Shown: piece after piece, positions 4,165 to 8,497 of the stretch | Position numbering within the stretch: the first letter of the stretch is position 1 | Layout: each line of letters begins with the position of its first letter | NCBI GenBank assembly: GCA_013001295.1 | Contig: JABDMW010000040.1 | Coordinates: 62,001-126,000, forward strand | Length of the DNA stretch: 64,000 nucleotides | Direction of reading: 5' to 3' | Source of the DNA: Hyphomonadaceae bacterium | GTDB lineage: Bacteria > Pseudomonadota > Alphaproteobacteria > Caulobacterales > Maricaulaceae | Program-made: the position numbers and the translations under genes | The notes under the pieces: generated by a model | Seen by the model: only the letters and a program-made list of their open reading frames with translations | Database searches by the model: none | What the model was told of the DNA's origin: nothing

Positions 4165-5478
4165 ATGGCGACCATAGAGATTTATTTTAAAGATACGCAG
4201 GGACTGGGTGATGCCTTGACCGCCCATGATAATATTGATGTAAGCCCGCCGGATGAAAAACTGATCGGGCGTGGCAGGGCAGCCTGCATCTGGATTGGTG
4301 TGAGTGTCCCGATCGAAGAAATTAAAACCGTCTTGGCTGAAGCGCTGCACATCTATCCACATCTGCAATATTACAAGCTCAGCACCGATTATTATCAAGC
4401 ACCCCGGCACGCCCATCATATGATCGGTATTGGCGGTGAAACCGACACGGCCACAAGGCTCGGGCTTAAATCAATCGCGGCTGCAGATCTGCTGGAGGCC
4501 CTTCCGCAAATCACCTCGTCCGAAATTCTGTTTCGCATTGTCCGGGCCACCTATCCAGGCGCCTATAAGGTTTTTGACAGCGAGAAGGAACGCGAATTTA
4601 TGAACAATCAGGCGGCCCTGACCGTAACCGAAAGCGACAAATCCGATGAACAGTCGGCCGTGATCAAGGCCCGGGACGCCTTGGATCAAAAAGCCATCGC
4701 CGCAGGAAGGCGTCCGAAAAGCCCCGAGGCGGCCAGTGAAACCGGCTATGAAAAATACCGCATTACATGGCTTAAATATTTGGCCGGCGATACAGATAGC
4801 GACAACATACATATGGACGAAAATCATTGGCCCGTACAAAATCTGTCGAGCAAAACCAGTGCGCTCGGACATTTGGAAGCCCTGGTCAATTTTACCACAC
4901 GCACGCCCGAAGACGGCCTTGCCGATTTCACCGAACTCAACGGTACCAAATTCCTGCAAGAGTTTGATGAACGATACGATATTTTATGTGGCAAGTTTAA
5001 AGACGGCACTTACGAGGATTGGCTGGAATCGCAATACCTGCCCAACCCGACAAAACTGTTGGATTTCGTCACCCTGATGTGGTTTGGCGGCGAATGGGTG
5101 CTGGCGGACAAATATTTGAAAATCGCCAGGAAAGAGCTCGCCAATTTTCCGGACAATTTTCAGTATTACAAGGATAAAGCGCGCGTGATGCAGGCTTTCG
5201 CCAATGGCAAGACTTTCCGCGCGCCCAAGCCATCAGAGCACTATGATAAGTCTCAGCTCAAAAAGGCAAGCTTGCTCGGCCTGATGGCAGCCATCGCCAA
5301 TAAAGGCGATGTGAACGTCGCCCTCGCCCAGGTCGATAAGGATTTCAAAGCCGCCAATAAATCCAAAAAAAGCCCACAGGCCAATCCAGACTTTGGGCAC
5401 GACCGGTTACGCATACCGTGGAATTTCGAAAAGCAGGCCATCCTGATGTGCGCCCAAGGCCTCAAGAAAGCATCATAG
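4165..5478 (+). CDS. Unrecognised 437-residue soluble protein upstream of the Ubl/DUF4132 pair
   Basis: I do not recognise a family. The start has a strong GGGGAGA ribosome site. There is no signal peptide or membrane segment. The N-terminal ~130 residues are mixed alpha/beta, with an unusual HAHHMIGIGGETD stretch. A charged linker (about 150-200) separates a mainly helical C-terminal half containing paired Trp/Phe-rich helices (TLMWFGGEWVLADKYLKIAR) that look like helical repeats. It is 80 nt after the sugar transferase and about 100 nt before the ubiquitin-like gene, all on one strand. It could belong to the same operon and be a third component of that system; this is inference from position only. 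Confidence 0.6.
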   Translation: MATIEIYFKDTQGLGDALTAHDNIDVSPPDEKLIGRGRAACIWIGVSVPIEEIKTVLAEALHIYPHLQYYKLSTDYYQAPRHAHHMIGIGGETDTATRLGLKSIAAADLLEALPQITSSEILFRIVRATYPGAYKVFDSEKEREFMNNQAALTVTESDKSDEQSAVIKARDALDQKAIAAGRRPKSPEAASETGYEKYRITWLKYLAGDTDSDNIHMDENHWPVQNLSSKTSALGHLEALVNFTTRTPEDGLADFTELNGTKFLQEFDERYDILCGKFKDGTYEDWLESQYLPNPTKLLDFVTLMWFGGEWVLADKYLKIARKELANFPDNFQYYKDKARVMQAFANGKTFRAPKPSEHYDKSQLKKASLLGLMAAIANKGDVNVALAQVDKDFKAANKSKKSPQANPDFGHDRLRIPWNFEKQAILMCAQGLKKAS

Positions 5479-5579: not shown

Positions 5580-6005
5580 ATGGGTGTATCTGTTCGCATT
5601 GTGGATGAGCATTTCGGCAAGTCGAAACTGTCGATCTTTGATCTTCAATATCCGTCGGACACGGTGACGATGCGCGAGTTGATCACCCGCCGCGTCGAAG
5701 AAGAAGTCGCCCAGGTCAATCACATGAAACGCAACCCGGACCGGATCAAAGCCGAACACCGGATGTTTCTGGCCGGGCTCACACGTCGCTCTCCCGAGGT
5801 TCTACTGAACCCTGACGCCGGCGGTAAAAAAGGAAAACCGGTCGACGCCGCGGCCGCTGTCAAAACTGCATTAAAAGCGTTTGATGCGGGCAGCTTTTTC
5901 GTCCTGTTCAATGACAAGCAGTATGAAAATCTCGATGACCAGATCGTTCTCACGCCGAACAGTGAGGTTGTGTTTCTGCGCCTCACGCCGCTGATTGGTG
6001 GATAG
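5580..6005 (+). CDS. Ubiquitin-like beta-grasp protein ending in Gly-Gly
   Basis: The protein has 141 residues and an ideal AGGAGG ribosome site. The N-terminus (VSVRIVDEHFGKSKLSIFDL, then TVTMRELITRRVEEEVAQV) reads as beta1-beta2-alpha1 of a beta-grasp fold. The C-terminus (FFVLFNDKQYENLDDQIVL, then SEVVFLRLTPLIGG) matches the ThiS/MoaD/ubiquitin tail: a strand with a short loop, a 'D-x-x-x-L-x-x-x-x-E-V-x-F-x' turn and a terminal GG. About 50 residues (47-98) are inserted relative to MoaD or ThiS (66-81 residues). No E1-like adenylating enzyme, ThiG or MoaE lies nearby. The gene is followed after 5 nt by the DUF4132 gene, implying translational coupling. Family assignment is by pattern, and the conjugation role is inference. 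Confidence 0.72.
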   Translation: MGVSVRIVDEHFGKSKLSIFDLQYPSDTVTMRELITRRVEEEVAQVNHMKRNPDRIKAEHRMFLAGLTRRSPEVLLNPDAGGKKGKPVDAAAAVKTALKAFDAGSFFVLFNDKQYENLDDQIVLTPNSEVVFLRLTPLIGG

Positions 6006-6010
6006 GCCGG

Positions 6011-8497
6011 TTGGATTTTTTCAAGAAAATATTGGGGCAAAACAACCAAGGCGCAGTAGACGGCACTGCGGATCCCGCCTTCGAACAGGCGCAGCTCTTT
6101 ATCAATGAATATCTGGCGCGCGGGTTTGCTAAATATGGCAATCCGGTCAAACTGGCTGACATGGAAAGCTGGGCAAAGATCAAAGCCGCAGATCCGGAAT
6201 TCATGGCCGATATTTGCCTGCTCGCCCTCAAACGCAAAATTTCAGAAGCCTGGATTAAATCCAAAGCCCCGAAACCGGGAGAGAACATAAATAGCTATGC
6301 CTACCGGGAGGCCGAGCTGAAACTGGGCAGCACATTGATGCGTTCGAAATTGCCGTTTTCGGAAATACAATTAACGGATTTGGTCCACTCATGTGCCAAG
6401 CGCCGCAGCATGGAATGGGACAACCCGATCGTCTCGGTTCTCGGTGCCACGGAACGGGTTTTGGGCGACAATCCGCCCGGTGCACAGCTCACCAAGGCTT
6501 TGCAAAAGGTGCGCGCGAAATGCATCAAGAAAATGCGGTATTCGAACACGGAGGCGAAACGAAAGATAAAAACCCGTATCGAAAAGCTGCTGGACCCGGG
6601 CATAAAAAATACGGCGTTTGTCCTTCCCAAGGGCAAATGGATGCAACGGGCGCTCGAGGACATAGCCGCCCTCACGGACAAGAAACGCGCGGCCTGGCTG
6701 GCGCTCTTGGAATATGCGGCGGACGCCAAGGGATCCAAGCCGAGCCAGAAATGGCTCAAGCAAGGCGGAGACCTTATAACGGCGCTGGGCAAACAAAATT
6801 TTCAGGCCTTGATGACCGACTGGATCGATGGCACCAAGATCGATCCCGGGGATCCTGACCCCGCCGTTGACTTAATCAAGGGCCTTGTCTGGCTTACTGC
6901 CAATACACCCACGAATGAGATGGCGTTGTCCATCAGCCGGTTGGGCGAAAACTGCTATGTCAAAGTGGCGGGTATCGGGGCGCGGTCAAAAAAACTCGGC
7001 AATGCCTGCTGCGTGACCTTGATGAATATGCCGGAAAACAAAACCGCCATTGCCGAACTCGTGCGCCTGCGGGGCAAGATCAAATACCCAAGTGTGCGGG
7101 GTGATATTCAAACCAAACTGGAAGCCATCGCCGAGAAACAGGGCGTGACCGTCGCCGAGTTGGAGGATGCCTCCCTGCCCGATTTCGGATTTGATGCGGG
7201 CGGTCAGTTGATAAAAACATTGGGTGACTTCAATGCCACGATCAATCTCGTTGGCAATAAGGCCGTTCTTGCCTGGGCCGATCAAAACGGCAAGGCCCGC
7301 AAGACCGTGCCGGCCGCGGTGCGTAAGGAATCCAAACCGGAACTTACGGACCTCAAACGGCTCGTCAAAGACATGTCCGGTGTGCTGGCCAGGCAAATCA
7401 CATCATTGGAGCAGAGTTATCTGAATGACCGGTCCTGGGATTTTGCGTCATGGCAAACGCGCCATTTCAACCACCCGGTGCGTCATAATCTCACGCGCAG
7501 CCTGATCTGGTTCATCACCGATGGCAAAAAATCCACATCGGTCCTGCCCACAGACACGGGCCTGCAAGACTTGGCCGGAAAGACTATTAATCCGTCAAAG
7601 ACGGCCGCGGTTAAGCTCTGGCATCCTTTATTCGAAGACACCAAAACCATCGTCGCCTGGCGCGACAAGATCGAGGAGCTCGGTCTTGTCCAGCCGTTCA
7701 AGCAGGCTCACCGCGAAGTCTATGTGGTCACGGACGCGGAACGCACAACCGGGATTTATTCGAACCGGTTTGCCGCCCATGTACTGCGCCAGCATCAATT
7801 CAAAGCCCTGTGCGAGGCGCGCGGCTGGACCTATGTTTTGCAAGGCATGTGGGATGGCTGGAACATTCCTCAAAAACGCATTCCCGCATTCGGGATCGCG
7901 GTTGAATATGCGGTGGAGATGATCGCAGACGAAGGTGAAAGTAATCACGGCATCGCTTTGTACTTGTCATCAGACCAGGTGCGGTTTTCATCGAGCGAAT
8001 CCAACCAGATGAATATTGAGGATGTACCGCCGCTGGTGTTTTCGGAAATCATGCGCGACGTTGATTTGTTTGTTGCCGTCACTTCCGTTGCCAATGATCC
8101 GAACTGGACCGACGGCGGCCCCAATGGGCGGTTCGGCAATTATTGGGAAAGGTTTGCCTTTGGTGATCTGGGCGAAACGGCTAAAACCCGCAAGGAACAA
8201 ATTGCCAAACTGGTGCCGAAACTGGCAATTGCCGACAAGCTGGAAATCGAGGACAAATTCCTGAAAGTCGAAGGTAAGGTCAACACCTATAACATCCATT
8301 TCGGGTCGGGCAATATCATGATGATGCCCGGCAATAAATATTTGTGCATCGTGCCCGGCCGAAGGCCTAAAGAGACCGAGAAAGTTTACCTCCCCTTCGC
8401 CGGCGACACGCTTCTCTCCATCATTCTGTCCAAAGCGCACATGCTGGTCAACGACGACAAAATCACCGATACGAATATTTTGAATCAGTTGCGGTAA
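6011..8497 (+). CDS. DUF4132 (MolR-like) domain protein
   Basis: The 828-residue soluble protein begins at TTG 6011, only 5 nt after the ubiquitin-like stop, with GGTGGATAGG as ribosome site inside the preceding gene. The first ~530 residues are helical, repeat-like sequence (ARM/HEAT style) and include an adjacent Cys pair in NACCVTLM near 331. Residues about 555-690 carry the DUF4132 signature: PFKQAHREVYVVTDAE, YSNRFAAHVLRQHQFKALC and RGWTYVLQGMWDGW. The family includes E. coli MolR/YehI, often fused to WGR; no WGR domain is seen here. The biochemical activity of DUF4132 is not established. Coupling to a GG-ended ubiquitin-like protein suggests a joint role. Confidence 0.82.
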   Translation: MDFFKKILGQNNQGAVDGTADPAFEQAQLFINEYLARGFAKYGNPVKLADMESWAKIKAADPEFMADICLLALKRKISEAWIKSKAPKPGENINSYAYREAELKLGSTLMRSKLPFSEIQLTDLVHSCAKRRSMEWDNPIVSVLGATERVLGDNPPGAQLTKALQKVRAKCIKKMRYSNTEAKRKIKTRIEKLLDPGIKNTAFVLPKGKWMQRALEDIAALTDKKRAAWLALLEYAADAKGSKPSQKWLKQGGDLITALGKQNFQALMTDWIDGTKIDPGDPDPAVDLIKGLVWLTANTPTNEMALSISRLGENCYVKVAGIGARSKKLGNACCVTLMNMPENKTAIAELVRLRGKIKYPSVRGDIQTKLEAIAEKQGVTVAELEDASLPDFGFDAGGQLIKTLGDFNATINLVGNKAVLAWADQNGKARKTVPAAVRKESKPELTDLKRLVKDMSGVLARQITSLEQSYLNDRSWDFASWQTRHFNHPVRHNLTRSLIWFITDGKKSTSVLPTDTGLQDLAGKTINPSKTAAVKLWHPLFEDTKTIVAWRDKIEELGLVQPFKQAHREVYVVTDAERTTGIYSNRFAAHVLRQHQFKALCEARGWTYVLQGMWDGWNIPQKRIPAFGIAVEYAVEMIADEGESNHGIALYLSSDQVRFSSSESNQMNIEDVPPLVFSEIMRDVDLFVAVTSVANDPNWTDGGPNGRFGNYWERFAFGDLGETAKTRKEQIAKLVPKLAIADKLEIEDKFLKVEGKVNTYNIHFGSGNIMMMPGNKYLCIVPGRRPKETEKVYLPFAGDTLLSIILSKAHMLVNDDKITDTNILNQLR

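Follow-up and report, generated by a model that had tools for sequence, protein, structure and literature searches.

The two-gene arrangement of a ubiquitin-like protein (Ubl) and its enzyme is known from the MoaD–MoaE and ThiS–ThiG pairs, and the tail of MoaD enters MoaE. In the Cap2 system of cyclic-oligonucleotide-based antiphage signalling (CBASS) and in BilABCD, a Ubl ending in Gly-Gly (GG) takes part in acyl transfer to cysteine. Here we analysed a 64,000-nucleotide stretch of a Hyphomonadaceae genome (the window), in which a GG-ended Ubl gene is followed directly by a gene for a DUF4132–DUF7737 protein. The pair resembles MoaD–MoaE and ThiS–ThiG in its beta-grasp Ubl with a C-terminal GG, but differs from them in the large insert of the Ubl, the lack of a ThiS/MoaD match in Pfam, the DUF4132–DUF7737 partner and a partner cysteine that tracks the GG end. 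The GG-ended Ubl is likewise shared with CBASS Cap2 and BilABCD; here transfer to cysteine is proposed, and in contrast to those systems no E1 (activating enzyme), E2 (conjugating enzyme) or JAB gene recurs beside the pair. Taken from sequence, the comparison suggests an undescribed two-part ubiquitin-like system, laid out in the window as follows.

5580..6005, + strand: Ubl gene, 141 residues, beta-grasp with a variable insert, C-terminus LTPLIGG (open reading frame, model, alignments)
5997..6002, + strand: codons of the C-terminal Gly-Gly (sequence; GG in 31 of 37 Ubl loci)
6011..8497, + strand: DUF4132–DUF7737 gene, 828 residues, TTG start (open reading frame list, Pfam)
6068..7174, + strand: N-terminal helical-repeat (HEAT/ARM-like) part, residues 20–388 (AlphaFold2 model, VIA-align)
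7289..7828, + strand: Pfam DUF4132, residues 427–606, E 2e-48
8180..8491, + strand: Pfam DUF7737, residues 724–827, E 6e-36; marks Ubl-linked DUF4132 proteins
8345..8347, + strand: codon of Cys779 in a YLCIVP motif; co-varies with the GG tail of the Ubl

The original prediction had described a 141-residue GG-ended frame, a DUF4132 gene 5 nt behind its stop codon and a ribosome site for that gene within the Ubl gene, and all three are borne out: the frame is real, the spacing is as described, and GGTGGATAGG, directly upstream of the DUF4132–DUF7737 gene, shares bases with the final codons of the Ubl gene. What it had missed is the DUF7737 domain (PF24879), which scores 123 bits against a cut-off of 27, alongside 165 bits against 27 for DUF4132 (PF13569). 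By genome search, the window's genome holds a single copy of each gene. As the prediction had also held for MoaE, ThiG and E1, Pfam finds no MoaE, ThiG, E1, E2 or JAB domain in the ten other genes of window positions 0.3–17.5 kb. A 437-residue open reading frame upstream of the Ubl gene (window 4165–5478) gave no Pfam, NCBIfam, PADLOC or PHROG match; it was considered as a member of the system and excluded, as no counterpart lies near the other loci.

The recurrence of the pair was assessed in 398 genomes from the phylum, three of which gave a Ubl match, in 296 from Bacteroidota (8) and in 246 from Planctomycetota (14), each count including the genome at the centre of its search, with further loci from named genome contigs (5) and plasmid records. 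On the genome contigs, the window's Ubl alone found no relatives, and an alignment-based search then gave the five. Removal of repeats left 37 Ubl loci in six phyla (L002/L004/L009, L003/L005/L012, L008/L014 and L011/L046 were each counted once, as were short loci and their longer re-fetches). The pair is accessory: with the window's own genome included, the Ubl occurs in 3 of the 99 genomes of the relatives search and in 1 of 14 of the genus there, and across the order 4 genomes out of 299 have it. A DUF4132 gene adjoins the Ubl gene in 35 of the 37 loci and lies one gene away in another (L041), so that the recurrent DUF4132 linkage foreseen in the original prediction holds for 36 of 37. Among the 35 measured pairs, to which Deinococcus ficus does not belong, 26 are spaced within 10 nt or overlap, eight are separated by 23–89 nt and one by 1,175 nt, and the Ubl gene comes first in 32; the gaps are approximate, as gene starts are those of the open reading frames and several were set by hand (L040 and L073, whose gap exists by construction; L061, about 3 nt late). 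By comparison, among 298 neighbouring open reading frames no other family appears in more than three loci, and E1, E2 and JAB are not recurrent; this comparison covered unannotated frames of at least 80 codons within 6 kb, and genes are missed or misread in the GC-rich loci. Since the tail and the pairing are seen in six phyla, the arrangement in the window is not a chance observation and, as judged from gene order, the Ubl and DUF4132–DUF7737 genes travel together. A phage or virus origin was rejected: phage records and viral contigs gave no match, though phrog_20839, a PHROG family without assigned function, matches the DUF4132 protein.

By its family matches, the presence of a Ubl goes with one particular part of the partner, DUF7737. 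It was found in all 34 Ubl-linked DUF4132 proteins of the Pfam scan, which did not include L111, L143 and L069, the last also being left out of the column counts below because its DUF4132 gene is read as two frames with ambiguous bases. In contrast, it is absent from 13 of 13 Ubl-free DUF4132 proteins from seven Pseudomonadota genomes; four of these 13 proteins carry WGR. These Ubl-free types, the WGR–DUF4132 proteins of the E. coli MolR type and the DUF4132 proteins encoded with AAA and DUF5682 genes, have the DUF4132 domain in common with the window's protein, including H538 (13/13) and Q565 (12/13). E. coli, as a control genome, has DUF4132 and no DUF7737 match, and nine stretches around Ubl-free DUF4132 genes contain no Ubl. 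Among the 296 Bacteroidota genomes, DUF7737 occurs in nine, and its nine full-length places are the same nine loci (eight genomes) that hold a Ubl. A tenth place, G904:C1:73387-73503, is a fragment (positions 63–102) in a 56-codon frame, perhaps of a decayed system. We also observed a tandem pair of DUF4132–DUF7737 genes behind a single Ubl gene (L011 8400–13580), and Ubl-free DUF4132 genes that adjoin AAA ATPase and DUF5682-type genes (L112 7044–16780, annotated; L095 and L098, by eye).

The fold of the Ubl was approached through its model. No family in Pfam or NCBIfam (E up to 1) or in PADLOC or PHROGs (E up to 0.1) matches the sequence, and 22 Ubls have none to Pfam ThiS/MoaD (E up to 0.1). 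The AlphaFold2 model, built from six sequences (mean pLDDT, the predicted local distance difference test score, 70.6), runs through two strands, a helix, the insert, a helix and four strands to a loose GG tail. The insert, at about residues 52–89, is poorly predicted, and in the alignments its length varies while the tail is conserved. The top VIA-align match is human MoaD (5mpo_B; Z 8.0, 3.9 Å over 80 residues), and ubiquitins and other ubiquitin-like domains come next at Z near 7, among them 2kan with Z 7.2 (2.1 Å over 76 residues) and 4nnj_B with Z 7.0 (2.5 Å over 75 residues); by title, nearly all of the listed rows are ubiquitin-like, with middling Z values. Foldseek alone gave nothing at E < 0.001, and the search for solved relatives with the Ubl profile gave four rows only, all at E 0.57 or worse. 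As modelled, the Ubl is a ubiquitin-like beta-grasp protein nearest to MoaD and ubiquitin, in agreement with the fold that had been predicted for it.

The model of the partner is of lower quality (pLDDT 69.6; pTM, the predicted template modelling score, 0.45). Its N-terminal part best matches a designed helical repeat (Z 10.2), with karyopherins at about 10, and these helical-repeat scores indicate a fold class only. The listed fold matches lie mostly within residues 20–388 and bear little on an E2 or HECT fold in the C-terminal half (389–828), which is modelled with low confidence. The sequence search for solved relatives of the DUF4132 protein gave none. Ten polar residues of DUF4132, namely H538, Q561, Q565, R568, Y571, T574, E577, S584, R586 and H590, are kept in 34 of 34 Ubl-linked proteins; Bacteroides finegoldii has Asn at the H590 position.

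The C-terminus of the Ubl is GG in 31 of the 37 loci, window included. The remaining six, all from Bacteroidota (L041–L045 and B. finegoldii L111), end in GAYW, GSYW, GTYW or GRLW, that is, in G-x-x-W, so the GG conservation expected in the original prediction holds for 31 loci and fails in six of one Bacteroidota clade. We rejected the idea that GG is a by-product of a Shine-Dalgarno sequence, as GG persists in loci with the Ubl gene in second position (L004, L014) and across gaps of 54–89 nt (L037, L065, L067, L068). In the partner, Cys779 of DUF7737 is present in 31 of 31 proteins paired with a GG-ended Ubl (29 in the alignment, D. ficus and L069; 30 loci, one with two copies), and the six G-x-x-W partners have N, S, S, S, S and A at this position. 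The next commonest Cys column reaches 17 of 34. Our column control compared the last 430 residues of 30 GG partners with those of the six: 25 columns are invariant in the 30, and of these Cys779 alone is absent from all six. With the threshold lowered to 29 of the 30, 42 columns qualify; the six retain 33 of them throughout, and only W500 and Cys779 are missing from every one of the six. D. ficus, fetched after the idea was formed, has GG with Cys and fits. Nonomuraea orphan paralogues retain Cys779, and the diverged DUF7737-type protein of Acetobacter plasmids (no Ubl on the plasmid or beside the gene, the chromosome being outside the search) has Phe there, which would count as a second Cys loss. 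In the tree, the six G-x-x-W partners form a single clade (99/92) beside the GG/Cys proteins of Deinococcus, with the GG/Cys planctomycete L061 outside; L061 and Acetobacter are long branches of unsure placement. On the alignments, the GG end of the Ubl is retained when DUF7737 of its partner has Cys779 and lost when it does not.

The family includes one pair that has been met before. Our comparison identifies drA0165–drA0166 of Deinococcus radiodurans, read in isolate DRR11 (L020), as this pair: DRA0165 (SEP068184) ends in GG, and DRA0166 has the domains DUF5724–DUF4132–DUF7737 with the Cys, which is Cys1577 by the numbering of L020. In the accessible text of PMC8533742, drA0165–drA0166 is placed in the DdrO/IrrE damage regulon, and mitomycin C is reported to raise DRA0166-V5 in the wild type, a response that an irrE mutant lacks. 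The accessible part of PMC9650054 describes SEP068184 as a cytoplasmic, MoaD-like negative regulator of antioxidant capacity, reports its likeness to MoaD and SAMP1, and states that it is without an operator and confined to Deinococcus. As read in the DNA, both of these statements are contradicted: the family spans six phyla, and a DdrO operator (radiation/desiccation response motif, RDRM) without mismatch lies at L020 7868–7887, its near end 63 nt upstream of the start codon of the Ubl gene, with a matching site upstream of the Ubl gene in two further Deinococcus plasmids (L019 7858–7874; L021). Four consensus patterns run over 35 upstream regions found the Deinococcus motif only (3/35; D. 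ficus is not among them), and a general SOS control of the pair was rejected on this ground; Deinococcus is the one group whose sequence shows damage control. The gene that follows drA0166 (L020 13300–13884) matches Endo_dU (PF01949), a possible DNA-repair endonuclease.

RNA-repair genes accompany the pair elsewhere. In a member of the Pseudomonadota outside the window's class (L036 1062–15001), the pair lies within an RNA-repair island composed of Band_7, RtcB, RtcA, RlaP, an RNA ligase, a proteasome-like protein, an RF-1-type factor and the end of a second RtcB. RlaP-family nucleotidyltransferase genes are also found near the G-x-x-W pairs L043 (10822–14618) and L045 (10683–11741). With three of 35 loci, a link of the pair to RNA repair is suggestive only.

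Our preferred reading, to which we give a probability of roughly 0.48, is that of a two-gene accessory system in which the Ubl tail may dock in the partner and be carried by Cys779, with the E1 supplied from elsewhere. By analogy with the MoaD tail in MoaE, the Ubl tail would enter a cleft between the DUF4132 core and DUF7737. The GG tail would first be adenylated by a housekeeping E1 of the MoeB/ThiF type encoded elsewhere, Cys779 would then hold it as a thioester or acyl-persulfide, and from there the polar residues that are invariant in the DUF4132 core could transfer either the acyl group or sulfur to a target. The regulon of D. radiodurans and the RNA-repair genes near three loci point to a putative role in responding to stress that damages nucleic acid. 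The pairs of the G-x-x-W clade would have lost the covalent step and may work through tail binding alone. In line with a borrowed E1, a ThiF-family E1-like gene is found in 28 of 29 Ubl genomes (24/24 with GG, 4/5 with G-x-x-W; the exception is G900). The window's genome has two ThiF-family matches, both on other contigs, and the one over the cut-off is a 249-residue protein that is MoeB-like by eye and encoded beside a cysteine synthase gene, also by eye. The original prediction had offered DUF4132 as ligase, target or scaffold; the co-variation of Cys779 with GG supports an enzyme or scaffold, and would suit a modifier as well as a sulfur carrier.

A bolder form of this reading is unlikely as matters stand. 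Here DUF4132–DUF7737 would be an unrecognised Ubl transfer enzyme, a single polypeptide that passes its dedicated GG modifier from Cys779 to targets damaged by stress, such as proteins of translation or of RNA or DNA repair. It would do so without E2 or JAB and with an E1 that is borrowed, or dispensable if the DUF4132 core itself adenylates the tail.

Several observations weigh against the docking and transfer reading. E1-like genes are near-universal, with 11 of the 14 control genomes scoring above the cut-off, so that their presence in Ubl genomes is a consistency check only. Cys779 is not the sole change in the six G-x-x-W partners, as W500 (29/30 GG partners) is lost in all six too, and when the criterion is loosened to the 45 columns common to Deinococcus, L061 and 90% of the remaining proteins, A576 and L738 join the losses. 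Since the six form one clade with GG/Cys neighbours around it, the simplest history read from the tree would be a joint loss of GG and Cys779 on one branch, which, with the Acetobacter case added, leaves few independent events. The two genes are also found apart: two of three Nonomuraea DUF7737 paralogues (L017, L109, L144) have no adjoining Ubl, with one Ubl in the record, and a Ubl-like frame ending in VAGG (L062 1834–2424), perhaps of another Ubl family, lies on a 15.8-kb contig that is without DUF4132 over its whole length, and so is the only one of the 37 loci to stand unpaired. Finally, the accessible part of PMC9650054 reports 157 proteins that co-purified with all four tagged forms of SEP068184, N- and C-terminal; as these forms share them, a free GG is unneeded for those contacts.

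A serious rival, though somewhat unlikely, is a non-covalent explanation: the Ubl would stay with the DUF4132 enzyme as a permanent subunit, structural or regulatory, its tail would do no more than bind a pocket, and GG and Cys779 would be residues that pack against each other. The six pairs lasting without GG or Cys, the 157 proteins common to N- and C-tagged forms and the absence of any partner gene in more than three loci are all in its favour, and the loss of W500 while the Ubl gains a C-terminal Trp resembles a packing exchange. Packing, however, does not obviously account for GG in 31 of 37 Ubls, nor for Cys779 as the only one of 25 invariant columns to track it.

Improbable, in our estimate, is a sulfur carrier, in which a Ubl thiocarboxylate, as in MoaD, ThiS and CysO, would deliver sulfur by way of Cys779, the recipient being an RNA or small molecule on which the DUF4132 core acts. 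The Ubl-plus-enzyme layout shared with MoaD–MoaE and ThiS–ThiG, MoaD as the nearest fold, the MoeB-like gene beside a cysteine synthase gene in the window's genome and the RtcB, RtcA and RlaP genes around one pair would all suit such a role. By comparison, the 22 Ubls without a ThiS/MoaD match, the large insert, the restriction of neighbour families to at most three loci and the retention of most invariant core residues in the Cys-less six argue against it. A toxin–antitoxin or defence system, with DUF4132 as toxic effector and the Ubl as neutraliser, is very improbable: the patchy spread (3/99 and 4/299 genomes, own genome counted) and the tightly spaced small gene, mostly in first position, would fit, but a Ubl deletion strain of D. 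radiodurans with unchanged drA0166 expression was made, according to the accessible part of PMC9650054, and PADLOC, phage records and viral contigs gave no match, the PHROG match of the DUF4132 protein notwithstanding.

As to earlier descriptions, the claim that no such system was on record is to be qualified, as the D. radiodurans genes themselves appear in PMC8533742 and PMC9650054, the accessible part of the latter giving the MoaD and SAMP1 likeness. In their accessible parts, neither paper treats drA0165–drA0166 as a Ubl–enzyme system or mentions the GG end or the wide distribution, and the pair is likewise unmentioned in those of PMC7824862, PMC1779556 and PMC7159879. In the literature searched, whose scope did not extend to bioRxiv and most subscription journals, DUF4132 occurs in three papers and DUF5724 and DUF7737 in none, and the matches listed include no paper that presents the pair as a Ubl system.

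Through our analysis, two domains that had no assigned function become a defined system of two parts, each with a feature open to testing, the GG end of the Ubl and Cys779 of its partner, and the G-x-x-W clade without the Cys offers a natural control for what the covalent step contributes. Should the proposed chemistry hold, bacteria from six or more phyla, the model organism D. radiodurans among them, would run a ubiquitin-like pathway that annotation has not seen, and in D. radiodurans this pathway would belong to the DNA-damage regulon.

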